DNA of 20,231 nucleotides, taken from a virus. The position numbers and the translations under genes were made by a program. The stretch covers positions 1 to 20,231 of the IMG/VR virus record IMGVR_UViG_3300030060_003236; one strand, 5' to 3'. How positions within the stretch are numbered: the first letter of the stretch is position 1; each line of letters begins with the position of its first letter. Below the pieces are notes generated by a model. That model saw only the letters and a list, made by a program, of their open reading frames with translations, did not search any database and was not told where the DNA came from. Shown here in pieces: positions 6,474 to 19,221 of this stretch.

Positions 6474-9400
6474 GTGGCAGGAGAATATAAAAAACTTTTA
6501 GAGACTAACCCTGAACTTGCTGCAGAAATTAAAAAAAAAGTTAAGTCTCGAATAACAGATAAAAAAGGTCGTGAAAATTATTTTTTTATAACTAATGATA
6601 AAACAAATAGTATAAATAATACTACTAGAAATGAGAAAGAGACTTCTGATTACAACTATGAAGACGACACAGACTATAATAAAAAGGTAAGTTTAGGTAG
6701 GGCATTTTCACTGGGTTTACTAGATACAACTAGAGGTGTTAGTCAAATAACAGGACTAGGATTTGATAAAAAAACCATGCGTAAGGAACAAAGACAGTTA
6801 GTTAATTCTATGCAAGGTGAAGGTGGCGGACTAATTAAAGCTGCCTATTTTGCAGGTGCTATTCTAGACCCTGCTTCTTGGTTATTACCATTCGGTAAAG
6901 CAAAAACACTATACACTATGGGTAAATATGGCATGGTCTCTGGAGCCGTAGCAGGTGCTGCAGGATATGTTGATGAAGATATGGAAAGTATTGTAGGAGA
7001 AGGTAAGATAACTAGAGGTGAACAGGCTTTACTTGGAGGCATTGGTGGTGGAATATTAAGTCCTACACTAGGTGCATTAAGAAATCTAGGAGTAAAAGTT
7101 ACAGGTAAAGGAACAGCCACTCCTATAGGACAGCCTGACCCTGAAGGTTTTATAGGTACAATATTTAATCTTAAACATGTTAATACTCAAAAGGCACTAA
7201 AAGATAAGAGCATTAAAAAAGTAAAGCTTTCATCAGCACCCAAAATTAAAGAGGGTGAAGATTATGTTGGAGGTATTAGAAAAGGAGATAAAGCTATATT
7301 TGCAACTGAAGGTAAAGGAAGAGTAGCTACATATAGACCTGATAGTAAAATAGGAGACCCCTCTGCTGATATTTTAAAAACTGTTGAAGAACAAGACCTA
7401 CTAAGAAAAACAGGAAAAACTGAAAAGCAAATAGAGGCACAAAATAAAAAAGAATTTATAGAAAAACAAAAAAACTTTCCTAAAAAGGGTATGTACATGA
7501 AGCCTGTTAAATCTTTCTTCGATAAGTATATTGCCAAACCTTACGAAGAAAAAATAGGAAGGCCTACTTTTCAAAAGATAGCATCAGGACAAGGAGCCTC
7601 TGTAACTGGTGGTGCTTTACTAGGTTTTAATACCAACGAGGAGTTGCCCCTAATTAGTATAAATAATCCTTTTAGTTCTAGATTAGGAAGGGCTATGACA
7701 GGAGCTGTATTGGGGCTAGCAGGTTTTAAAGGCCTTTCTAAATTAAAAATAACTAGAAAAACAGGTACTAAAGAGGATGATGGTGCTACTTTTACTATGC
7801 CTGTCACAGAATGGATGGGTAGAGGAATTAAAGATAAATACAATTTACCAAGAGAATTTGTAGCTTTAAGACAACAGGCCCAAGGAATGGGCGGTCATAT
7901 AGCTTCTCAATTTCATGACCTTGTACAAAAAGCAAAGCTTTTAAATATGGATGAAAGAAGAATACTTTACAATATTTTGGAAGGCGATGAAATATCCAAG
8001 GTAGATTCTAAAAAAATAATGATGTTATCCAAAGAAGCAAGAGAAACAATAAATAAATTTGGACAGATGTATGTCGACTACGGATTAATGGATGTAAAAA
8101 CTTTTCAAAGAAATGCAAACTCTTATTTAAGAAGAATATATTCTAAAGATAAAGAAGCACCTAAGATTGGTGATGATTTAAAACCTAGGGGTCAGGTGTT
8201 AGAAGTAACAGAAGCAGACTTTAATAAAAATTATAAAAATGTTAAAGCTGTTAATGAAAAAGGACAACCTATTATGATAAGGGGAGGTATAGGAGAGCCT
8301 AGACTAGTTGAGCATAGAGGTTGGGAAGTATTTGATGATGTAACAAAAGACGGAGTTAAATATAAAGTTATTAGATGGGAGTATACTAAAGCAGAAAGAT
8401 TAGCTAAAGGTGAAATTGAAGATGCTGCAGCAGGTATAGAACTTACAGGACAATACATGGCAAGTACAATATCTCAATTTAAATTTTATGATGATATATA
8501 TAAAACCCCATCACTAGGAGCATATGTAAAAGCACCTAATGGTAAGTATACACTGGATAAAAAATTTAAAGGTCTATCTGAAGAAGCCATGAACAAGCAG
8601 GGATATTATAAAATGCCTGACACAAGTATCAAGGATACCAAAATTAAAAAGTATGGAAATCTATCTGGTAAATATGTTCTAGAAGAAGTATACAGAAATC
8701 TATTAACCGCTAATAAGTATAGGGAACTAGGTAGCAAATCTTTATTTCAAAAGTATAGAAAATTAAATGGTTTATGGAAAGTATCTAAAACGGCATGGAA
8801 TCCAACTGTTCATGTAAATAATATATTTGGTAATATTTTCTTTTCAGACTTTGCTGATGTACCACTATTTGTAGGCACTAAGGGAGAAGGTGGACTTATA
8901 GATTCTTTTAAAATGTTAGCCAAACATAATAGTAAAGACCCTTATAAATCAGAGACTGTTTATTTAGCACAAAAGTTTGGTGTTTTTGACGCTGACTTTA
9001 TAGCTAGAGAACTTAAAACATTTGATTTTAAAGCTATTAAAAATGCTTATAGCTATGATGCTAAAAAAACAGAGTGGAGCAATGCTGTAGATATTGGTGG
9101 TAGAGTTTATGAAGCGGTAAGAAAAAATAAAATAACTGGAACACTACAAAATTGGTACAGGGTTGAAGACCATATATTTAGATTAAACGCCTTTCAACAC
9201 AGACTTAAAATGGGTGACAGTGCTAGTGATGCTGCTCTGTTTGCTAGAAAACAATTTATTGATTATGACATAGATGCACCCGTAATAAATGGATTGAGAC
9301 ATTCTGTAACTCCATTCTTAGCATTTAGTTACAGAATAGTTCCTATACTTGCTGAAACTGCAGTAGTTAGACCTTGGAAGTTTGCTAAGTATGCTGCACT

Positions 9401-10172
9401 AGGATATGGATTAAGTACACTAGGTGCTGAAATGGGAGGTGGTGATGCAGAAAAAGAAAGACAAATGCTTCCCAAATATTCTGCAGGAACACTATTAGGT
9501 ATACCTTTAATGCCTAATAATGAAATAAAATTACCTATACAATCTAGGGAAGGGCAGTCTAAGTATATAAATATTCAAAGATTTTTTCCAGGTGGGGATG
9601 TTTTAGACATGGGTGATAGGATAGTTCCTTACTTACCCGCACCATTACAACCAAGCTTGGGAATAGCAGGTGATATATTTTTTAGTTTAATAGGAGTTGA
9701 CTTATTTAGAAAGACATTTGAACCTACGTCAGATGTCATAGAAATTTCAAAGAGAATGGGTACTAAATTAATACCTAACTTTCCTTTTATACCAGGGTCT
9801 TACTCTACAAAAAGAATAGATAGAGCAACTAGAGGTACTAATATTTCACCATACAGAGAAGATGAAGCTGAGTGGATGGCTATACTAAGTGCTTTTGGAT
9901 TTAAAGTTTCTAATAGAACAGTGGGTACTTTAACTGCTGCAAAATCTTTGGAATTTACTAAAGAAATGAAAAAACTAGAAAAAGAAATAGGAGATTTGGC
10001 AGACCAATTAAGAAGAGGTGTAATATCTATGGGTACATATGATAGAAAATCTTCTGAAATAATAATTAAAATGCAAACTAAAGCAAAAATATTTGGTGGA
10101 AGGATAGAGGGAATATCTCCTGCAGATATTCTAGAATCACCAGAAGTTTTAAACTTAAGAAATAATAGATAG
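6474..10172 (+). CDS. Very large internal/ejection-type virion protein (1232 aa)
   Basis: Start is GTG at 6474 (VAGEYKKLLETNP, initiator read as Met), three bases after the previous stop; no in-frame ATG fits as well. Residues about 120-205 contain several Gly/Ala-rich hydrophobic stretches (AAYFAGAILDPASWLLPFG, SGAVAGAAGY, ALLGGIGGGILSP), and 370-425 contains two more (TGGALLGF, AMTGAVLGLAGF). These could insert into membrane. A long helical Lys-rich body follows, with a TAWNPTVHVNNIFGNIFF motif near 775, HIFRLNAFQHRLKMGDSASDAA near 900 and a TPFLAFSYRIVPILAE segment near 945. The last 75 residues form a coiled coil. This size and layout match the large polyvalent or gp16-like proteins that many podoviruses eject with DNA to cross the envelope. 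I see no lytic transglycosylase motif. Function is inference from architecture and place. Confidence 0.8.
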   Translation: MAGEYKKLLETNPELAAEIKKKVKSRITDKKGRENYFFITNDKTNSINNTTRNEKETSDYNYEDDTDYNKKVSLGRAFSLGLLDTTRGVSQITGLGFDKKTMRKEQRQLVNSMQGEGGGLIKAAYFAGAILDPASWLLPFGKAKTLYTMGKYGMVSGAVAGAAGYVDEDMESIVGEGKITRGEQALLGGIGGGILSPTLGALRNLGVKVTGKGTATPIGQPDPEGFIGTIFNLKHVNTQKALKDKSIKKVKLSSAPKIKEGEDYVGGIRKGDKAIFATEGKGRVATYRPDSKIGDPSADILKTVEEQDLLRKTGKTEKQIEAQNKKEFIEKQKNFPKKGMYMKPVKSFFDKYIAKPYEEKIGRPTFQKIASGQGASVTGGALLGFNTNEELPLISINNPFSSRLGRAMTGAVLGLAGFKGLSKLKITRKTGTKEDDGATFTMPVTEWMGRGIKDKYNLPREFVALRQQAQGMGGHIASQFHDLVQKAKLLNMDERRILYNILEGDEISKVDSKKIMMLSKEARETINKFGQMYVDYGLMDVKTFQRNANSYLRRIYSKDKEAPKIGDDLKPRGQVLEVTEADFNKNYKNVKAVNEKGQPIMIRGGIGEPRLVEHRGWEVFDDVTKDGVKYKVIRWEYTKAERLAKGEIEDAAAGIELTGQYMASTISQFKFYDDIYKTPSLGAYVKAPNGKYTLDKKFKGLSEEAMNKQGYYKMPDTSIKDTKIKKYGNLSGKYVLEEVYRNLLTANKYRELGSKSLFQKYRKLNGLWKVSKTAWNPTVHVNNIFGNIFFSDFADVPLFVGTKGEGGLIDSFKMLAKHNSKDPYKSETVYLAQKFGVFDADFIARELKTFDFKAIKNAYSYDAKKTEWSNAVDIGGRVYEAVRKNKITGTLQNWYRVEDHIFRLNAFQHRLKMGDSASDAALFARKQFIDYDIDAPVINGLRHSVTPFLAFSYRIVPILAETAVVRPWKFAKYAALGYGLSTLGAEMGGGDAEKERQMLPKYSAGTLLGIPLMPNNEIKLPIQSREGQSKYINIQRFFPGGDVLDMGDRIVPYLPAPLQPSLGIAGDIFFSLIGVDLFRKTFEPTSDVIEISKRMGTKLIPNFPFIPGSYSTKRIDRATRGTNISPYREDEAEWMAILSAFGFKVSNRTVGTLTAAKSLEFTKEMKKLEKEIGDLADQLRRGVISMGTYDRKSSEIIIKMQTKAKIFGGRIEGISPADILESPEVLNLRNNR

Positions 10173-11308: not shown

Positions 11309-11453
11309 TGATTTCTGTCAATCCTGCTAATAAATTAATATATTTTTGCACTTCAATAAAAGGCTTGTTAGCTAAGTATTGTAGTAGAGTATTCCTCTGC
11401 TCTTCACTTAGTACATAGTTTTTTTGTTGAGGTGCTTCGTTATTTTTGGTCAT
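11274..11453 (-). CDS. 59-aa small helical protein
   Basis: A complete frame from ATG at 11453 to TAA at 11274 that a 60-residue cut-off would miss. AGGAG stands seven bases before the ATG. The protein begins MTKNNEAPQQKNYVLSEEQR and continues with two helices, the second LANKPFIEVQKYINLLAGL. Overlaps of 14 bases with the DUF6378 gene and 35 bases with the 98-aa gene make it part of the coupled chain and fill what would otherwise be a 130-base hole. The helix-type segment is reminiscent of small conserved proteins in uncultured marine phages (memory only). Function unknown. Confidence 0.75.
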   Translation of the reverse strand: MTKNNEAPQQKNYVLSEEQRNTLLQYLANKPFIEVQKYINLLAGLTEINDNISPNFIKK

Positions 11454-11703
11454 GTATTTCTCCTGCTATTGCAATGTATGCAGCACCATCAGTATAACTA
11501 TCGGCACTACTTCCTGTTGTTGTCCTAGCTATCTTTAGTATAGCCATCATCATAGCCACTTGCTCTGCATTGATTTCACAATCAGTATAAGCAGACCACA
11601 TAGTAGCTATCTTATCATGGAGTATCTTCTTATCTCCATAAGCTTTTGCTCTGTCACCAGAAACTAATTTAGATGCACTCTTCAGTATGTCTTCAGTTTT
11701 CAT
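11440..11703 (-). CDS. DUF6378-type protein (87 aa)
   Basis: The core matches the phage-borne DUF6378 pattern: SGDRAKAYGDKKILHDKIATMW, SAYTDCEINAEQVAMMMAILKIART, then SADSYTDGAAYIAIAGE, that is an R-YG-H-IA-W helix, a xVAxMMxxLKIART helix and a D-W/Y-DxAxYxAxAGE helix. The domain is widespread in phage and prophage proteins, and its biochemical role is unknown to me. The fold pattern with conserved D/E/K positions recalls all-alpha NTP pyrophosphohydrolases, which is an inference. The start at 11703 is preferred over an ATG at 11733 because GGAGAATAG stands directly before it and the shorter form begins MKTEDILKSA, typical of the family; overlap with the nuclease gene is 11 bases. Confidence 0.85.
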   Translation of the reverse strand: MKTEDILKSASKLVSGDRAKAYGDKKILHDKIATMWSAYTDCEINAEQVAMMMAILKIARTTTGSSADSYTDGAAYIAIAGEIHDQK

Positions 11704-12085
11704 TTCTATTCTCCATATAATTATTATAATCAATTAACTTAATAATAGGAACTAAGTATCCCCAAGAGGTATTGTTATCTCCCCCAGGAACACTGTTAAA
11801 CTTATTGTTATCAATTATATATATTAAATCTTTTGTTTTTAAGGTTATGTTAAAACAAAATCTATCCCCGCTATAAAAGTTTATAGTCCACCACTCTGCT
11901 TGAGTCTTTCGTATACCACTTTCTTTACCTCTACTTTGATATTCGCAATAGTGGTTGCCTGTCTTAATCCACTTATCTCTTTCAGACTTTACCTCAGTCT
12001 TCTCACCTTCTTGTATTTCCCCTACTACTACTTCACCTTGCTTACCCCACTCTAGGTCATGTTTAAAATTAGAATTATGTTTCAT
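11693..12085 (-). CDS. PD-(D/E)XK-family nuclease, small (130 aa)
   Basis: The N-terminal half reads DLEWGKQGE (10-18), then KTEVKSERDKW (29-39), TGNHYCEYQSRGKESGI (about 42-58) and TQAEWW. This order, conserved Glu in the first helix, E-x-K (E31, K33) strand, GNxxxEYxSRGKxSGI and T-A-xW, is what I know of small phage PD-(D/E)XK endonucleases related to Holliday-junction-resolvase-like folds. The usual acidic residue shortly before the E-x-K is represented only by nearby E26/E28, in a short connection. It could act on branched DNA before packaging, or on host DNA. AGGAG lies before the ATG (12085). Family call is by motif, without a search. Confidence 0.75.
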   Translation of the reverse strand: MKHNSNFKHDLEWGKQGEVVVGEIQEGEKTEVKSERDKWIKTGNHYCEYQSRGKESGIRKTQAEWWTINFYSGDRFCFNITLKTKDLIYIIDNNKFNSVPGGDNNTSWGYLVPIIKLIDYNNYMENRNEN

Positions 12086-12092
12086 AGTTCTC

Positions 12093-12407
12093 CTAGTTCA
12101 GATTTTTTAAATCTAAATATTTTGTTAAGTCTACTATATTACTTTCATCATCTTCTTTTATGAACTCTGTTGCGTCAGACATATCAATAGCATCTAACTT
12201 AGCAGATATCTCTATACCCCTTTCATAAAAAGGGTCAGGGTCTTCTAGCAAAAGCTGTGCTGCTCCCAGTGCCACTAGCTTACACATTTCTTTTTCAGGA
12301 GTATCTGCATTATAATCAGTAGTTAAACCAACAGCAAACTTACCTTTCTTATAAGGTTTTAATAATATTACTATTCCGTCATTTATATTTTGTGTTTTTT
12401 TTGTCAT
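12093..12407 (-). CDS. Unknown protein (104 aa)
   Basis: ATG at 12407 overlaps the exonuclease stop in an ATGA fusion (12404-12407) with GAGGA upstream; a longer frame to 12443 starts inside the exonuclease without such support. The protein begins with basic residues, then GIVILLKPYKKGKFAVGLTTDYN, a helical middle (CKLVALGAAQLLLEDPDPFYERGIE) and an acidic C-terminal half. No domain recognised. Its coupling to the exonuclease suggests a shared role in DNA processing, which is not shown by sequence. Confidence 0.75.
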   Translation of the reverse strand: MTKKTQNINDGIVILLKPYKKGKFAVGLTTDYNADTPEKEMCKLVALGAAQLLLEDPDPFYERGIEISAKLDAIDMSDATEFIKEDDESNIVDLTKYLDLKNLN

Positions 12408-13306
12408 TGTTTTTTTCCTCTGTCGGCTACATGAGTATACCAATAATATCTAGGACTTTTAGAACGAGGCCTACCTTCATCATCAAAAACTTGTTGAGGT
12501 AAGTGTTGTATCTTATCTCCCCAACAATCTTGCTTGAAAGAACAGAACCCGCAGACACTACTCAACACTCTATTACCTGTTAGTTTACTTCTATACTTTT
12601 CTTCTACATCATCGAAACACCTTTCAAAAGGTTTGTTTTCCATCAAAGCTTTAATATTATCATCGGCTAACTTCAAAGCTTCTTTTCTATGTTTAGTATC
12701 ACTTCTTGGTGCTGATACTATACACATTTCCCCTGTTGATTTATTAACTACAATCCAACCTCCAAACTTTTTATTCTCTGCATCTGCATAGAGATATCCT
12801 TGAGACTTATATCCAAAGACATCCTTATCTACAACTGCTTCAAATCCCATAGCAAACTTATTCTTGTATGCCCAATCACTAGCTGATTTAATATCATAAA
12901 TTTTACCACCAATCTCTACATCATAAGTACCTGTAAGACCTGTCTCAAAGTATTTACTTTTTCTAGTGACTTGTTTTTGTTCACTATCTACTACAGTTCC
13001 AGAAGCTTTTAATAACAACATTGTTAATGCTTCTATCATATCACCAAATAAAAATCTTAGTTTATTATTGTAAGGCATGGGTTCTTTTTTGGCCCCTGCT
13101 TTTTCCATTTGTAATTGACAGAGAGGTTTACCGATACCTGACATCCTAATTCTAAAGGAGGTATCTCTTTTTTCTTTGAATTGTTTTCGGATTGCTTTCT
13201 TACAGTCTTCTCCAAACTGTTCGATAAGTTCTTCGCTTACAGGCACAGGCGATTTCTCAGCCTGTACCAATAAATGTTTTATTTTATCTAGTATTTCTTC
13301 TGTCAA
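12404..13306 (-). CDS. Cas4/AddB-like PD-(D/E)XK exonuclease with Fe-S cysteines (300 aa)
   Basis: The nuclease core reads FLFGDMIEALTMLLLKASG (about 86-103), TGLTGTYDVEIGGKIYDIKSAS (122-143), with D129 (GTYD) and D138-I-K140 as the metal-binding D...D-x-K. Cys residues flank the core: C63 before it, then C252-x2-C255-x5-C261 behind it. This one-plus-three arrangement is the iron-staple Fe-S cluster of Cas4 and AddB nucleases, and CxxCxxxxxC is the spacing I know from Cas4. The enzyme probably resects DNA ends for recombination or degrades host DNA. Start is TTG at 13306, fused to the SSB stop (TTGA); no ATG lies nearby. No Cas1/Cas2 or array is present, so no CRISPR role is implied. Confidence 0.85.
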   Translation of the reverse strand: MTEEILDKIKHLLVQAEKSPVPVSEELIEQFGEDCKKAIRKQFKEKRDTSFRIRMSGIGKPLCQLQMEKAGAKKEPMPYNNKLRFLFGDMIEALTMLLLKASGTVVDSEQKQVTRKSKYFETGLTGTYDVEIGGKIYDIKSASDWAYKNKFAMGFEAVVDKDVFGYKSQGYLYADAENKKFGGWIVVNKSTGEMCIVSAPRSDTKHRKEALKLADDNIKALMENKPFERCFDDVEEKYRSKLTGNRVLSSVCGFCSFKQDCWGDKIQHLPQQVFDDEGRPRSKSPRYYWYTHVADRGKKQ

Positions 13307-14127
13307 GCTTTAGTGACTTTAGATACTAAGGCACTTTCATCAGCATACTTTTTTAAATGAGCATGGTATTTTTCCATAACTTGCTCATTCTTAGCTTCAA
13401 TATCATTCTTGAATAATTGATAGGCTCTACCATCGTCACTATCTTCTAAAAGATTAGCAGGTATATCAAGAGATGTTATCTTACCTATCTTTAAATTATA
13501 AAATGTATTACCGCCAACAGTCTTCTCCTCTGTATTTAATGCTACAGAATTAGACCACAGTATTCCTTTATTTGATAATAAAGAATCTAAGTTGCTCATA
13601 ACAATAGCATTACCTCCTGCATATTTTAATTGAACAGGATATTCTTTCAGAGTAATCTTATCACCCTTTGAGTTTTCACCTTTAATATCCATCAAGCCAT
13701 ACATAATTCTATAAAACTTTGTACTCTCTGCCCTTACCTTTTGGTCGGGTGTTAAGTCTGCTCTATTTTTTGTAGTGACATATCCACATTTTGTAGTGCC
13801 TAAGGTATCAAAAGCTTCTTCTCCAAATGCAACTAAGATAGACTCAGCAGAAAAAGTTTTCTCTTTATTATCCCATGTCATGTACTGTTGTCTTTTCATG
13901 AATGGTCTAAAAGATATTGAGGGTGCATAGACAAATTGTTCTGTATCCTTATCCCAAACATTGTAGCTACCAAGATGTTGGGTAATTTTATCATCATTAT
14001 TTTTGTCTTTGTGGTTGTTTGTTATTCGCAGATTAACAATGTATGAGGGCGTACTTTTCGTACCCATACCTGCCTCTGCTCTTATTTGTTCTTCGGACAT
14101 GTCTCCAAAGATTGTTTTTTCAGTCAT
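13303..14127 (-). CDS. Putative ssDNA-binding protein (274 aa)
   Basis: The protein lies between DNA polymerase and exonuclease, the usual place of the ssDNA-binding protein in podoviral replication operons, and has the strongest ribosome binding site of this operon (ATAGGAGTATAT). It is rich in beta-prone segments (SYIVNLRITNNHK, SISFRPFMKRQQYMTWDN, FYRIMYGLMDI, YPVQLKYAGGNAIVMS, FYNLKIGKITSLDIP) with many aromatic and basic residues, compatible with an OB-fold. The C-terminal end (SALVSKVTKA) lacks the acidic tail typical of T7 gp2.5 and E. coli SSB. I call the role mainly from context and expression signal. An alternative is an annealing protein paired with the exonuclease. Confidence 0.6.
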   Translation of the reverse strand: MTEKTIFGDMSEEQIRAEAGMGTKSTPSYIVNLRITNNHKDKNNDDKITQHLGSYNVWDKDTEQFVYAPSISFRPFMKRQQYMTWDNKEKTFSAESILVAFGEEAFDTLGTTKCGYVTTKNRADLTPDQKVRAESTKFYRIMYGLMDIKGENSKGDKITLKEYPVQLKYAGGNAIVMSNLDSLLSNKGILWSNSVALNTEEKTVGGNTFYNLKIGKITSLDIPANLLEDSDDGRAYQLFKNDIEAKNEQVMEKYHAHLKKYADESALVSKVTKA

Positions 14128-14131
14128 GTAT

Positions 14132-14143
14132 ATATACTCCTAT
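14132..14143 (-). promoter_or_regulatory. RBS cassette ATAGGAGTATAT before the putative SSB gene
   Basis: Third exact copy of ATAGGAGTATAT, on the - strand, carrying the stop codon of the polymerase gene (TAG at 14142-14140) and ending four bases before the SSB ATG. Same arrangement as at the holin and lysozyme genes. Confidence 0.7.
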
Positions 14144-16158
14144 ATTTGTTTTAGGTCTAACCAATTATGCCCCTTTTTTATTTCATAGTCAAGGGGAATA
14201 TTAAAATCTATGTCGTATCTTTTATTAATAGATTGTGTGATACCATCACAAGCCTTCTTTAGTTTAGTTATGACATGGTCTACCTCCGATGAATGTGCAT
14301 CTATAATAATAGAATCATGCACAGTGTTTATTAATCTACTTCTCATTCCTTTTACTGCATTGTAAATATCAATACAAGCTGCGGGAACTATATCACCTGT
14401 TGCAAATCCTTGAACAGGATAATTTCTAACTTGAGTATAATAATTAGAACCACCCCAAGTACCTCTTTCTATACCTTCAAAGTAGTATTGCCTACCACTA
14501 GGAAGTGTCACAAAGGATGTAGCTATGGCTGTATCCTCTGTTCTATCTTGCCATTGTGTTATACCTTTGTATCTTTTCTTAAACCATGAGTAATATTTTT
14601 TCTCTTCATCAGTTCCTGAAAATCCACCATAGAGAGGTTTAAATGTATGTGCCTTTGCATCTTGTCTTACACAACCAATAACATTAGCAGTATTTTGGTG
14701 AACATCTACACCCTCTAAAATATCAGAGATAGCTTGAGAATCTTGAGATAGAAAAGCAGCAACTCTAAATTCTAATTGTGCAAAATCCATTTCAATAATC
14801 TCACCATTATCAAATCTAGATTGTATTATTCTTTTGATAGGTAGCTTATCACCCCTTGGTATATTTTGGAAGTTAGGCTCTGAACAAGATAGTCTACCTG
14901 TCACCACATTAGTTTGACTAAAGTGAGGGTGTAGCATGTCATCTTGTTTAACATATGTTTTTATACCCTCAACAAAAGTAGATAAATATTTTGATACCTG
15001 TCTAAATCTAATTAAGTATTCCAAAAACTCTTTTATTCTTCCAGTATTTCTATCGGCGATATATTGTAAGTTAGCCTCTGATACTACACCACCATTAGAA
15101 TTTATATTCTTCTGAGTTCTTATGGGTACTTTAAAACCTGCTACTTTTTGTGTAGCTGTAAGTAAAACACCTTCACCTTTACACTCAGAACACTTATGAA
15201 TTTGTTGAAAGTAAGTTCCATCTTTTTTTATTTTTCTACGGATACCTGCACCATCACAAACATTACATTTTACACCTGCCTCATACTGTACAGGTCTAGT
15301 TTTTTTCTCTATTATTTGTCTAAAGGTATGGTCGGGATATTTAACAGGAGTTCTCTTCTTTCCTGATTCATCTGTACCCAAGCCAAAAGTTATTGCCCAA
15401 TCATTCTTATCTATAATTTCTCTAGAATGGATGATTTTAGATAACTGCTCTGGACTTCCAATATTATATGGTCTATCGCCCATCATCTCTTGAACAGTTA
15501 TCTCTATCTTTTTTTTGATAGAACTATACTCCTCGTCTAATGCTTTTTTAAGTTCGTCTAGTGTGCTAGGATTTACATAAATTCCATTTCGTTCTATCTC
15601 TACTAATGTAATTAAAAATTCACACATCAATTCTAATGTAGGTAGTAGTCCTTTATTTTCTTCTCGTTTATAATCAAGGTCTTGTTGCAAGTATAAATCT
15701 TTTGTTATAGCAACATCATTTCTACCATAGGTTTCTAAATCAGAAATAGGTATCTTATCCATGCCAATACCAGAGTCTATGGCATTTTCTAATGTTGCAT
15801 ATTTAATTCCTATCTTTCTTCTCTTACAACATTCTTTTAAACTTAAAGGTTTTCTTTGGCCTCTGTATAAAACAGATTCTGCAACCATAGTATCCCATAC
15901 CTTACCTTCATATTTAAATCCACATTCTAATAACCAAGACAAATCAAACTTAAGATTGTGTCCCACCATTAATGTTGTCTTATCTAAAATTGACTGGAGT
16001 TCGTTATGGCTAGTACGAATATCGCCAGTGAACTCATCATGATTAAAAAATATATATTCATCATTTACTCCTACGCTTACTAGTTTATTACTTAAATTAT
16101 ACGGAGTATTATCTCCGTCTTTTGTGAAAGTTGTTTCTATATCCAATACACTAATCAT
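14140..16158 (-). CDS. polA: DNA polymerase, family A, T7-like, with exonuclease domain (672 aa)
   Basis: Replicative polymerase. The 3'-5' exonuclease is complete: LDIET (D6, E8), GHNLKFD (D72) and YGRNDVA (Y144, D148). The palm has motif A EMDFAQLE (D458), motif B RQDAKAHTFKPLYGG (R498, K502, F506, Y510) and motif C TVHDS (H614, D615). Phe at the site equivalent to E. coli Pol I 762 is the form linked in marine viral surveys to virulent phages. Unusually, residues 298-330 hold two CxxCxGxG motifs (CNVCDGAG, CSECKGEG), a DnaJ-like zinc module about 130-160 residues before motif A, the region where T7 carries its thioredoxin-binding loop. Length is typical for podoviral PolA. The ATG at 16158 is stop-start fused to the helicase gene (TAATG). 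The initial Met-Ile-Ser-Val-Leu-Asp fits the exonuclease strand exactly. Confidence 0.96.
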   Translation of the reverse strand: MISVLDIETTFTKDGDNTPYNLSNKLVSVGVNDEYIFFNHDEFTGDIRTSHNELQSILDKTTLMVGHNLKFDLSWLLECGFKYEGKVWDTMVAESVLYRGQRKPLSLKECCKRRKIGIKYATLENAIDSGIGMDKIPISDLETYGRNDVAITKDLYLQQDLDYKREENKGLLPTLELMCEFLITLVEIERNGIYVNPSTLDELKKALDEEYSSIKKKIEITVQEMMGDRPYNIGSPEQLSKIIHSREIIDKNDWAITFGLGTDESGKKRTPVKYPDHTFRQIIEKKTRPVQYEAGVKCNVCDGAGIRRKIKKDGTYFQQIHKCSECKGEGVLLTATQKVAGFKVPIRTQKNINSNGGVVSEANLQYIADRNTGRIKEFLEYLIRFRQVSKYLSTFVEGIKTYVKQDDMLHPHFSQTNVVTGRLSCSEPNFQNIPRGDKLPIKRIIQSRFDNGEIIEMDFAQLEFRVAAFLSQDSQAISDILEGVDVHQNTANVIGCVRQDAKAHTFKPLYGGFSGTDEEKKYYSWFKKRYKGITQWQDRTEDTAIATSFVTLPSGRQYYFEGIERGTWGGSNYYTQVRNYPVQGFATGDIVPAACIDIYNAVKGMRSRLINTVHDSIIIDAHSSEVDHVITKLKKACDGITQSINKRYDIDFNIPLDYEIKKGHNWLDLKQI

Positions 16159-17384
16159 TAATCTATGTACCTCGCTTTACTAGGCACAATCTTACAAGGA
16201 ATAATACCATGCCAACCCGTTAATTTATTTTTACTAATACATAATGTTCTAGTAAAATCTTCTTCTCCTTCCCAGTCATCCTTCTTTCCTATACCAATAA
16301 TTAAATCAGCTTCTGCTGCTTTGCCTGTCTTACTACCCTCCATGTTATTAAAACTTATGTGATTTTTATCATGAGCATCACTACTCGCTTGGCATATACC
16401 AAACATACACACATCCCTTCTACTAGCTATGTCTCTAGTTAATTTATATATCTCTCTCAATTTTTCATGACCACTGTCAAAATTTTCTGATAGTTCTATC
16501 TTATCTAATTGGTCAACTATAACTACATCAGGTTTATACTCTTCACAATAACTGTCTATTGATTCTACAGTAAAATCTTTACAATCGTATACATGAATTT
16601 TATCTTTTATTTTTTCCCATTCTGCATTAGCTACCTCAGGCTCTTCATCTATGTGGCTCTTAGTCATATCAGAACATGCCTGTATTAATCTTAAAACAAT
16701 TCTAGAAGGCTTCTCTTCATTGCAAAAAATGGCTATATTGTTGACTTTTTCTTGATATGCAAAACCATTTTCACCACCTACCATGTTAATCCAAAAGGCA
16801 GTCTTACCAGATTCCGGTCTTGCAAAGATGACAGTGAAGTGTCCCTTGCCAACACCCTTTACTTGTTGATTTAATAATGAGGGTGCAGAAAATTGAAACA
16901 GATTACTGTAATCCATTTCTTTGAGAAGTTCATACAAATCTTTTGTGACTTCTTGAATACTATCCTCGATAGATTCTTCTTGTTGTAAAAGTTTAACAAC
17001 ACTTTTTACATCACCACCACCATTTTTATAAATGTTTAAAAGTTTTTGTGATGCTTCATGTACAATTTGTGATTGATGCATCTGCTGTATAGTCAGTACA
17101 ACATTGTCTTCATTGATGTCAACTGTATCTAAGTCAGTCACAACCTGCATTGCTTTGTCTTTATTAGATTGTGTATTGGTAGGATTATAATTTAAATAAT
17201 TAATATATAAATCATCGTGAAGTATTTCTTTACAGTCAGGTAAATCTTTATAAGTTTTTTCTATGACTGCATAGACATCTAGTAAATTAGCTAGACTACT
17301 TTTTTGTATTTTGTTTTTGTATTTTTGATAAAACTCTTTTCTTAAGCAAAGCTTTATAATTTTTAATGCCATCAAATTTTTCAT
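16158..17384 (-). CDS. Replicative helicase, DnaB/RecA-like (408 aa)
   Basis: ATP-driven hexameric helicase that unwinds ahead of the polymerase. An all-helical N-terminal part (about 1-150) precedes the RecA core: Walker A ARPESGKT (188-195), the NEEK glutamate (about 223), Walker B PDVVIVDQLD (D291) and the sensor segment FGICQASSDAHD (Q332). The later GSKTGKAAEADLIIGI segment also fits DnaB-type helicases. Unlike T7 gp4, primase and helicase are separate proteins here. The ATG at 17384 follows GAGAGGG by about seven bases; ATG 17372 and an upstream TTG (17399) are alternatives. It overlaps the 60-aa gene upstream by 89 bases. Confidence 0.9.
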   Translation of the reverse strand: MKNLMALKIIKLCLRKEFYQKYKNKIQKSSLANLLDVYAVIEKTYKDLPDCKEILHDDLYINYLNYNPTNTQSNKDKAMQVVTDLDTVDINEDNVVLTIQQMHQSQIVHEASQKLLNIYKNGGGDVKSVVKLLQQEESIEDSIQEVTKDLYELLKEMDYSNLFQFSAPSLLNQQVKGVGKGHFTVIFARPESGKTAFWINMVGGENGFAYQEKVNNIAIFCNEEKPSRIVLRLIQACSDMTKSHIDEEPEVANAEWEKIKDKIHVYDCKDFTVESIDSYCEEYKPDVVIVDQLDKIELSENFDSGHEKLREIYKLTRDIASRRDVCMFGICQASSDAHDKNHISFNNMEGSKTGKAAEADLIIGIGKKDDWEGEEDFTRTLCISKNKLTGWHGIIPCKIVPSKARYID

Positions 17385-17478
17385 CCGCTGCCCTCTCAAA
17401 CCTCTTTGATACTTGTTCTAACCTTGGTGCTAATTTTAATATAGATAAAGCCTCTTTTAATTCTTCTGAATTATTCAT
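17296..17478 (-). CDS. Small Lys-rich protein (60 aa) overlapping the helicase start
   Basis: From ATG 17478 the frame encodes MNNSEELKEALSILKLAPRL and a basic helical rest (LLKKRVLSKIQKQNTKK). The start sits in the same ACAGATGAATAA junction used by the preceding gene, so translation is probably coupled; GGAGG is twelve bases upstream. The C-terminal 89 bases also encode the helicase N-terminus in another frame. No family is recognised. A helicase loader-like role would be a guess from position only. A real gene is likely but not certain because of the long overlap. Confidence 0.55.
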   Translation of the reverse strand: MNNSEELKEALSILKLAPRLEQVSKRFERAADEKFDGIKNYKALLKKRVLSKIQKQNTKK

Positions 17479-17484
17479 CTGTAT
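17471..17484 (-). repeat. Gene-junction repeat, copy 1 (ATACAGATGAATAA)
   Basis: Fourteen bases that hold both the end of one gene (TDE-stop) and the start of the next (MNN). An identical copy lies at 17685-17698 at the preceding junction. Here GGAGG stands 12 bases before the ATG because of six extra bases. Confidence 0.6.
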
Positions 17485-17692
17485 AATCATCCTCCACTCT
17501 AATATTACAATTACTTATAAATTCTTGAACATCTAAATTAAACTCTTGCATATCCACTAACTCTTTTGCAATAAGTTCTCTAGCTTTTTTATCAGAATAT
17601 TCATGTAAGTCTTTGACATTCCCTGGCACTTCAAATGTAAAAGTTCTCTCGACTGTTGCCATGATTTTATATTTTGGAAATGGATTATTCAT
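17471..17692 (-). CDS. Small unknown protein (73 aa)
   Basis: ATG at 17692 has GGGAGG six bases upstream and overlaps the previous stop by eight bases; a later in-frame ATG (17662) has no ribosome binding site. After MNNPFPKYKIMATVERTF comes a beta-strand-like segment and a helical acidic half (ELIAKELVDMQEFNLDVQEFI) ending EDDYTDE. The TFTFEVPGNVKDLHEYSDKKARELI part resembles small alpha/beta proteins in which two strands flank a helix, common among phage early proteins. No function assigned. Confidence 0.75.
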   Translation of the reverse strand: MNNPFPKYKIMATVERTFTFEVPGNVKDLHEYSDKKARELIAKELVDMQEFNLDVQEFISNCNIRVEDDYTDE

Positions 17693-17698
17693 CTGTAT
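17685..17698 (-). repeat. Gene-junction repeat, copy 2 (ATACAGATGAATAA)
   Basis: Second copy of the 14-base stop/start module, with GGAGG at ideal distance (six bases) before the ATG. See the copy at 17471-17484. Confidence 0.6.
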
Positions 17699-18128
17699 CC
17701 TCCCATGATTCCTCAGGTATTTTACTTACTACCTCTACTGGTTTAGTTTTCATAAATTCTAAGTTCTTACCTAGTAATACTTTAACTCTACCCTCTATTA
17801 CATGTTTAACATCATCCATTTTTAAATCAGAAGGTTTCTTTTCGTACATAAAAAAGTCTGACCTAAACCCTGTTTCAGATATGTAGGGAACATGATACTC
17901 AGGTCTTCCCTTATATTTATTACTGACAGTATAGCCTGTATCAATACCTTTATTTATATCTACTTCAAGCCTGTGGTTGGACATAGTTAGGTGATAATGC
18001 CAATTCTCCCATGGTCTATTATCTTCATTGTCCCAACCTCTATAGACTTGGGATGTAAGCTTCGCATCTATATCTATCTCCGATATTTTTATTATTCCTT
18101 CAAAGTGTACTCTGTCAAAAAACGCCAT
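17685..18128 (-). CDS. Unknown protein (147 aa)
   Basis: ATG 18128 is preceded by AAAGGAA and lies three bases after the stop of the coiled-coil gene. The first half is rich in beta-prone and aromatic segments (KISEIDIDAKLTSQVYRGWDN, RPWENWHYHLTMSNHRLEVDINKG), the second has basic patches and ends in an acidic EESWEDTDE. The DxDAxLxSxVYRGWD and W-WHYHLTMSNHR signatures are distinctive but do not match a family I know. It is placed between primase and helicase and is presumably an early or replication-linked protein. Confidence 0.75.
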   Translation of the reverse strand: MAFFDRVHFEGIIKISEIDIDAKLTSQVYRGWDNEDNRPWENWHYHLTMSNHRLEVDINKGIDTGYTVSNKYKGRPEYHVPYISETGFRSDFFMYEKKPSDLKMDDVKHVIEGRVKVLLGKNLEFMKTKPVEVVSKIPEESWEDTDE

Positions 18129-18131
18129 CTA

Positions 18132-18470
18132 CTATTCCTTTCCTTTTTTAAATAATCCAGAGGTGTTTAACTTAGAGGCATCCTCTTTTGCCTTATCTAC
18201 AACTTCAGCTAACTCCTGTGTTTTTTGAAGCTGTCGAAACTCTTCTTTAGTTTTAGATTGCTCAAGGACTTCGTCTACTGTCATATTAATTTTCTCTTGC
18301 CTTAAAAGAAAATTTCTCTCAGCCCACTGTTCTACTCTACCTGTCAAAAATTTATTATGAAGCCTAACTTCTCTTAGGTCTTCTTCTAACTCTTTAATTC
18401 TTTTTAATCTATCCCTGCTTTTTTCTTTAGCCTTCTTTAATTGTTCTTCTAACTCTCTAACTATTGCCAT
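18132..18470 (-). CDS. Coiled-coil protein (112 aa)
   Basis: AAGGAG lies before ATG 18470, and the start overlaps the primase end by 14 bases. Residues 4-65 form a charged heptad coil (ELEEQLKKAKEKSRDRLKRI onward), followed by EKINMTVDEVLEQSKTKEEF, another helix and a short basic tail (FKKGKE). An all-helical protein of this size next to primase might be an assembly or scaffold factor for the replisome, but the sequence gives no specific family. Confidence 0.75.
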   Translation of the reverse strand: MAIVRELEEQLKKAKEKSRDRLKRIKELEEDLREVRLHNKFLTGRVEQWAERNFLLRQEKINMTVDEVLEQSKTKEEFRQLQKTQELAEVVDKAKEDASKLNTSGLFKKGKE

Positions 18471-19221
18471 GTAATAACTCCTTAATTGTTTCTTGTTTTA
18501 AATATTTTAAATCCTTGGGTATGAGAACTATCTTACTATCTACACTATAACCTAGCTTCTTTTGTATGTCAAAAGTCTTAGCGTTAGCATCGGGGTCAAG
18601 GCATATATAAACTTTTTTAAATTTACTTCTAATATATTCTGCATGTTTATCAGATAGTGATGTACCCATAATAGCTATACCTGTATGGATAGGAGCTACT
18701 GCACAAGCTGACACACAGTCTTCAACAATTACTGCATTAGATACATCATTACCTACTACAAAAGGATAGGCACAAGAATTATATTTATACCATCTCGGAA
18801 CTTTATTAGATAATGTTCTGCCTACTGCACCTCTAACTATGCCGTCTATATCAATAATAAATACTACCCTATCTTGCTTAACATCATACATAATTCTAGC
18901 ATTACAATCATAAGGATTAATATTATAATCTTTTAAATACTTCATAGCTTTAGGATTGGGATAGATAGAAACAAATGATTTAGGCATAATAAATTTATCT
19001 TCTTGTTTTTTCTTAGGTGTAAAAATATTTTCAATATCGGAGATAGAATAACCCCTAGAGTTAGAGCCACTGTTATTGCACGATGCATGAAAACAATTCC
19101 ATATAATTTTACCACTAACTTTTCTAATAGATAAAGTATTCCTGTTTAAACAAGAAGGGCAGTCCATTCTAAGACTGCCCCCTTCGTCTATGTTTATGTA
19201 ATCTAAATCAATTCCTTGCAC
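18457..19221 (-). CDS. DNA primase, zinc-binding plus TOPRIM (254 aa)
   Basis: Makes RNA primers for lagging-strand synthesis. A zinc ribbon lies at the N-terminus: MDCPSC (C21, C24) and WNCFHASC (C43, C48). After a linker, the RNA-polymerase-like half includes KQDRVVFIIDIDGIVRGAVGR (115-135), and the TOPRIM core has AVIVEDCVSACA (E167) and VYICLDPDANA (D209, D211), the usual metal-binding Glu and DxD. Compared with T7 gp4 it is a stand-alone primase with no helicase domain; the helicase is encoded four genes downstream. The start is GTG at 19221 with a weak AGGT, and the product begins M-QGIDLDYINID, consistent with T7-type primases. Overlaps the gene on each side by 14 bases. Confidence 0.9.
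   Translation of the reverse strand: MQGIDLDYINIDEGGSLRMDCPSCLNRNTLSIRKVSGKIIWNCFHASCNNSGSNSRGYSISDIENIFTPKKKQEDKFIMPKSFVSIYPNPKAMKYLKDYNINPYDCNARIMYDVKQDRVVFIIDIDGIVRGAVGRTLSNKVPRWYKYNSCAYPFVVGNDVSNAVIVEDCVSACAVAPIHTGIAIMGTSLSDKHAEYIRSKFKKVYICLDPDANAKTFDIQKKLGYSVDSKIVLIPKDLKYLKQETIKELLHGNS

Follow-up and report, generated by a model that had tools for sequence, protein, structure and literature searches.

A DnaJ-like, predicted zinc module in the thumb of an HMO-2011-type phage DNA polymerase

The window, that is, the whole stretch of 20,231 nucleotides analysed here (IMG/VR record IMGVR_UViG_3300030060_003236), encodes a family A DNA polymerase that carries two CxxCxGxG motifs of the type known from DnaJ. 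This locus raises the question of where exactly these motifs sit in the polymerase and what they may do there. In Pfam, the 672-aa polymerase was matched by DNA_pol_A (E 1e-52) and exo1 (E 5e-8), and its nearest isolate match was the HTVC033P polymerase, with 46% identity over the full length. The features of the gene are listed below; the thumb helices are named H1 and H2 after the known structures of Klenow and T7 polymerase.

14140..16158 (-), family A DNA polymerase with 3'-5' exonuclease, HMO-2011 type, 672 aa (Pfam, HTVC033P identity)
15427..15465 (-), thumb helix H1 region NIGSPEQLSKIIH, residues 232-244 (alignments; helix 236-244 in the model)
15085..15426 (-), complete H1-H2 insert of the thumb, residues 245-358, 114 aa (alignment, loop lengths)
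15136..15288 (-), predicted zinc module proper, residues 291-341 (AlphaFold2, whole protein and module alone)
15244..15267 (-), first knuckle CNVCDGAG, residues 298-305 (C298, C301 and G303 invariant)
15193..15243 (-), lysine-rich inter-knuckle hairpin, residues 306-322 (charge, 85 sequences)
15169..15192 (-), second knuckle CSECKGEG, residues 323-330 (C323, C326 and G330 invariant)
14764..14793 (-), polymerase motif A EMDFAQLEFR, residues 456-465
14626..14667 (-), polymerase motif B RQDAKAHTFKPLYG, residues 498-511
14311..14322 (-), polymerase motif C VHDS, residues 613-616

Both knuckles were read from the ORF translation as an earlier note on this DNA had described them, and the span that it had proposed for the module, 15165-15280, contains both. 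The separation of 21 residues given there was reproduced between C301 and C323 and corresponds to 17 residues between the two 8-residue motifs. The module was found 126-158 residues before motif A, which starts at residue 456, close to the claimed 130-160. All exonuclease motifs, together with polymerase motifs A to C, were found, so the exonuclease and palm are intact, as had been supposed. Decay or a frameshift of the gene was therefore ruled out.

The window polymerase belongs to the HMO-2011 type by full-length homology to gp12, by its two CXXCXGXG motifs and by its clade placement. HMO-2011 gp12, HTVC033P gp22 and the polymerases of CRP-1, CRP-2 and CRP-3 have the same double CxxCxGxG at the same place, and full-length identity to the isolates was 35-46%. 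Further close relatives were found in Roseobacter phages CRP-345, CRP-1 and others and in Puniceispirillum phage HMO-2011 (39% over 100% of the query). The module itself is already known and has been published as a hallmark of the HMO-2011 type. A partial DnaJ domain, marked by two CXXCXGXG motifs, was reported in 2019 for HMO-2011 and the RCA phages (PMC6918029), and PF00684 is listed on gp12 in the RefSeq HMO-2011 record NC_021864. The two motifs later served as a criterion for HMO-2011-type polymerases (PMC8528129, 2021; PMC9038755, 2022), of which more than 2000 sequences were identified (PMC9038755). The location given in print goes no further than "between exonuclease and polymerase domains". 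A text match to "DnaJ" for Roseophage R5C was discarded, as it came from heat-shock proteins in a reference list and not from the R5C polymerase. No mention of the thumb was found in the literature searched that names HMO-2011 and polymerase, and no functional test of the module was found in the literature searched. The founding paper cited by these module papers reportedly appeared in PNAS in 2013. As far as this literature shows, the following points, all described below, appear to be new: which thumb loop carries the module, how this differs from T7, the module-less sister clade and the charge of the module.

Conservation of the module was studied in 217 distinct module-spanning polymerases of the group, taken from viral contigs, genomes and isolates. 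The search patterns used for viral contigs excluded the module itself; the best matches per query were kept, so very distant branches were possibly missed. C298, C301, G303, C323, C326 and G330 were invariant in 217/217 distinct polymerases among the matches listed, which bears out the expectation that the cysteines are conserved in relatives. G328 was variable and was present in 154 of the 217 polymerases among the matches listed. The spacing between the two CxxC was 21 residues in 165 of these polymerases and 33-34 residues in the other 52; therefore, the knuckles can be kept even where the hairpin is longer. Because the codons of the four cysteines alternate between TGT and TGC across relatives while the residues do not change, it may be concluded that the cysteines are under purifying selection. 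In 200,000 composition-preserving shuffles of the polymerase, two CxxCxGxG within 5-60 residues were never obtained. Together with the cysteine invariance, this ruled out a chance origin of the motif pair.

Similarity to DnaJ was found both by sequence and by predicted fold. PF00684 (DnaJ_CXXCXGXG) matched residues 296-333 with 24.3 bits (E 3.7e-5) in the whole polymerase and with 30.0 bits when the module was searched alone, both below the gathering cut-off of this family, 32.7 bits. The same family matched 75/75 relatives at E <= 0.01, and the NCBIfam DnaJ match in the polymerase was confined to residues 296-335. A sequence profile of the module matched residues 26-63 of E. coli DnaJ (1EXK), corresponding to repeats II-III, with E 5e-4. 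The polymerase was modelled with AlphaFold2, as protein only, from 85 aligned sequences, those of the window and of viral contigs. The whole-protein model (pLDDT 90.9, pTM 0.83) has module strands at 291-297, 306-310, 316-322 and 331-339, both CxxC pairs lie in turns, and the same four strands were obtained when the isolated module was modelled alone (pLDDT 84.5). The best Foldseek match of the module was the zinc domain of DNAJA2 (7zhs; probability 1.00, TM 0.51, with a weak E of 0.14), followed by BSD2, the UvrA finger and anti-TRAP. Two knuckles with a beta hairpin, matching the solved DnaJ structures 7zhs (E 0.14) and 1EXK, thus define a DnaJ-like predicted fold. Because the sequence of the module resembles DnaJ repeats II-III and its predicted fold resembles the zinc domain of DNAJA2, the four cysteines probably hold one structural zinc. 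With the cysteines present in 217/217 polymerases among the matches listed and a model pLDDT of 90.9, the proposal of a self-contained, DnaJ-like predicted zinc module in the thumb was sustained.

The zinc site of repeats II-III in the cysteine-rich domain of DnaJ/Hsp40 (PF00684) likewise has two CxxCxGxG knuckles joined by a beta hairpin and is the best match of the module by sequence and by fold; the gap between the motifs is 14 residues in E. coli DnaJ (1EXK) and 17 in the window module. However, the module has one knuckle pair where the DnaJ domain has two, has no J domain and sits inside a polymerase thumb. These differences bear on the possibility that it is a DnaJ-derived chaperone element recruiting host DnaK or a thiol oxidoreductase during replication. 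The similarity to repeats II-III is in line with such a role, and the authors of PMC9038755 recall that DnaJ takes part in lambda replication. Nevertheless, stimulation of DnaK requires an HPD motif, which belongs to the J domain, and a DnaJ of type I carries four repeats with two zincs (PMC8262869), whereas only two repeats are present in the polymerase and no J domain was found in it with Pfam or NCBIfam. With the J domain and half of the repeats missing, a chaperone role is considered very unlikely. DnaJ-like knuckles are also present in anti-TRAP, UvrA and lambda Q-like modules (for example, Loki gp45; PMC5313236), which, like the polymerase, act on nucleic acids or their regulators; unlike the module studied here, they are free-standing or lie in unrelated proteins.

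The position of the module in the thumb was determined by alignment. In bacterial PolA, the H1 helix, FNLxSxxQLxxxLF, is followed by a short loop of 16-18 residues and then by H2. In the HMO-2011-type group, the H1-H2 insert is 102-126 residues long. The segment NIGSPEQLSKIIH of the window polymerase was homologous to FNPSSRDHIQKKL of T7 polymerase (334-346). The thioredoxin insert of T7 (approximately 264-333) precedes the FNPSSRDHIQKKL helix, whereas the module follows the homologous NIGSPEQLSKIIH. The earlier note had put the module roughly where T7 polymerase carries its thioredoxin loop; the T7 alignment confirmed the thumb but showed a neighbouring loop, not the same one. Because the T7 insert precedes the H1 homologue and the module follows H1, this earlier placement was one loop off. 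An early MAFFT alignment that stacked the module on the T7 insert was misleading, because FNPSSRDHIQKKL of T7 was displaced in it. Identity of the module with the thioredoxin-binding site of T7 was ruled out by its position relative to the FNPSSRDHIQKKL helix. The T7 thioredoxin-binding domain resembles the module in being a lineage-specific thumb insertion of a phage family A polymerase that is rich in basic residues, but T7 polymerase has no CxxC motif and its insert lies before the H1 homologue.

It might still be supposed that the module binds thioredoxin or glutaredoxin and works as in T7, since it is a thumb insertion in a phage family A polymerase and some genomes of the group have glutaredoxin genes (GRX in a figure legend of PMC9038755). 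However, the insertion is in another loop than that of T7, and none of the window proteins tested was recognised as a thioredoxin or a glutaredoxin. This explanation is therefore regarded as highly improbable.

The history of the module was studied with a tree that was built after the insert columns had been removed. Module-bearing polymerases formed one clade (support 99/93), in which the window polymerase stood next to that of HTVC033P; compared with the isolates, the window contig represents a separate lineage beside HTVC033P. The sister clade (97/94), with the closest polymerases beyond the group, joined those of Vibrio phage VpV262 and Stenotrophomonas phage StenR_269 with contigs related to them (19 rows, 100/100). 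Unlike the group, this clade has an H1-H2 loop of 16-25 residues without cysteines. In StenR_269, a thioredoxin-domain protein (388-654) is encoded just upstream of the polymerase with the short H1-H2 loop. The simplest reading is one gain of the module at the base of its clade.

As in the group, insertions of 54-119 residues were found in the same loop in ICP2, MEP402, QDWS535, PollyC, SI01 and Vibrio 526E57-1. Unlike the module, these inserts have no CxxC knuckles and only 0-3 scattered cysteines; a F/Y-K-x-G-(x)n-G-x-x-K pattern recurs in most of them. The insertions of SI01, Vibrio 526E57-1 and PollyC, 108-119 residues long and also without knuckles, share a GxxxGxxKTK-like pattern. A profile alignment of the module with the knuckle-less phage inserts matched the flanking residues 258-272 and not the module. 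Because these more distant phages carry knuckle-less inserts there, it may be concluded that the H1-H2 loop was repeatedly used for insertions. The module may be a new insertion there or an older one that was remodelled. The polymerases of MEP402, ICP2, ctOsX528 and QDWS535 are split near the start of the palm into two genes, one for the exonuclease and thumb and one for the rest, sometimes with a small ORF between the two halves.

The charge of the module was analysed in the 85 sequences. The most basic 45-residue stretch of the polymerase was 268-312, with a mean net charge of +9.0, and all 45-residue windows of the polymerase averaged +0.8 (SD 3.4). The inter-knuckle hairpin had a mean net charge of +5.1 and was never below +2. 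Positions 309, 311, 318 and 322 were basic in at least 87% of the sequences; position 318 is Q in the window polymerase. By these averages over 85 sequences, the module is basic enough to contact DNA, in agreement with the suggested DNA contact.

Because no part of the polymerase is more basic than the insert, which is located in the thumb, a zinc-stiffened hairpin that contacts DNA is the best-supported mechanism. The four cysteines would hold a single structural zinc, which would stiffen the lysine-rich beta hairpin next to the duplex of primer and template; this hairpin would touch the phosphate backbone and extend the grip of the thumb, and the extended grip could give intrinsic processivity with no recruited thioredoxin required. 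We give roughly even chances to the proposal that a zinc-stabilised, lysine-rich hairpin grips the primer-template and raises intrinsic processivity, where both the DNA contact and the processivity are inferred. In simulations of T7 polymerase, K281, K285 and R288 of the thumb insert touch the backbone of the DNA (PMC5984650), so that a clamp-like thumb insert has a precedent. In the family A polymerases of plant organelles, too, insertions in the thumb are believed to sit ready on duplex DNA (PMC7699545). Against a DNA grip, the basic charge would also fit partners that are RNA or acidic proteins, contacts with protein could be made by Y/F317, which is conserved, and by position 329, which is often acidic, and the sister clade replicates DNA without the module.

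The main rival is that the module serves to dock a replisome partner, whether from the phage (an SSB or the DnaB-like helicase) or from the host, because the thumb insert of T7 also binds thioredoxin and the SSB tail (PMC7699545). In the group, the primase, helicase and polymerase genes and two conserved downstream genes are co-inherited, as would suit such docking. Two-repeat CxxCxGxG modules such as anti-TRAP work through protein binding, which also speaks for it. However, several of the most conserved module positions outside the knuckles are lysines, and no partner can be named, the 274-aa protein encoded downstream having no recognisable SSB match. Docking in place of a DNA grip is thus rather unlikely, if a serious alternative. 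The insertion could also specialise the polymerase for strand displacement, lesion bypass or end handling, by analogy with plant organellar polymerases, in which translesion synthesis and end joining require the lysine-rich thumb insertion 1 (PMC7699545). The presence of the module in every member of a replicative polymerase lineage better fits a general role, and such specialisation appears improbable.

The DNA-grip reading has an evolutionary extension, held more tentatively: this marine lineage may have evolved a zinc-stabilised DNA clamp between H1 and H2, a counterpart of the T7 thioredoxin clamp with another fold, gained once and never lost in the sample.

The polymerase gene lies in a replication set whose order, primase, helicase, polymerase, is that of HMO-2011-type isolates. 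Its other two members are as follows.

16158..17399 (-), DnaB-like replicative helicase, HMO-2011 type (Pfam DnaB_C, E 2e-15; nearest match HTVC033P, 36.5%)
18457..19221 (-), DNA primase with a Toprim domain (PHROG 47 DNA primase, E 2e-22)

The primase starts with a zinc-like CPSC...CFHASC motif and thus has a second probable zinc module of the replication set. Directly downstream of the polymerase, a 274-aa protein (13303-14127, -) is conserved in the group, with 22-32% identity to proteins of HTVC033P, HMO-2011 and CRP-738. No family or SSB match to it was found in Pfam, PHROGs, NCBIfam or PDB; by position, it is a candidate single-strand binding protein. A Cas4-like nuclease (PHROG 1990; 12404-13306, -), present in most HMO-2011-type isolates and with HTVC033P as the nearest isolate, has an iron-sulphur-like C-terminal cluster, CGFCSFKQDCW. 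For the 97-aa DUF6378 protein (11440-11733, -), the PHROGs label "phosphofructokinase" looks wrong for a protein of such size.

No capsid or terminase gene was recognised within this 20-kb fragment; the capsid and large terminase are the further published hallmark genes of the HMO-2011 type. A 1232-aa virion protein (6474-10172, +) had no match in any HMO-2011-type isolate and only weak matches in Helicobacter pullorum prophages and one environmental phage. The window looks mosaic, with an HMO-2011-type replication arm (11440-19221, -) set against this virion protein. Replication modules of the HMO-2011 type recombine with other structural modules (PMC8528129), and this may apply to the window.

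The dominant marine viruses include the HMO-2011-type phages, whose diagnostic marker is this module. The placement of the module in the thumb turns this taxonomic marker into a testable question, that of how processivity is obtained without a clamp or thioredoxin. If the module is a clamp, it could be a small processivity element that can be grafted.
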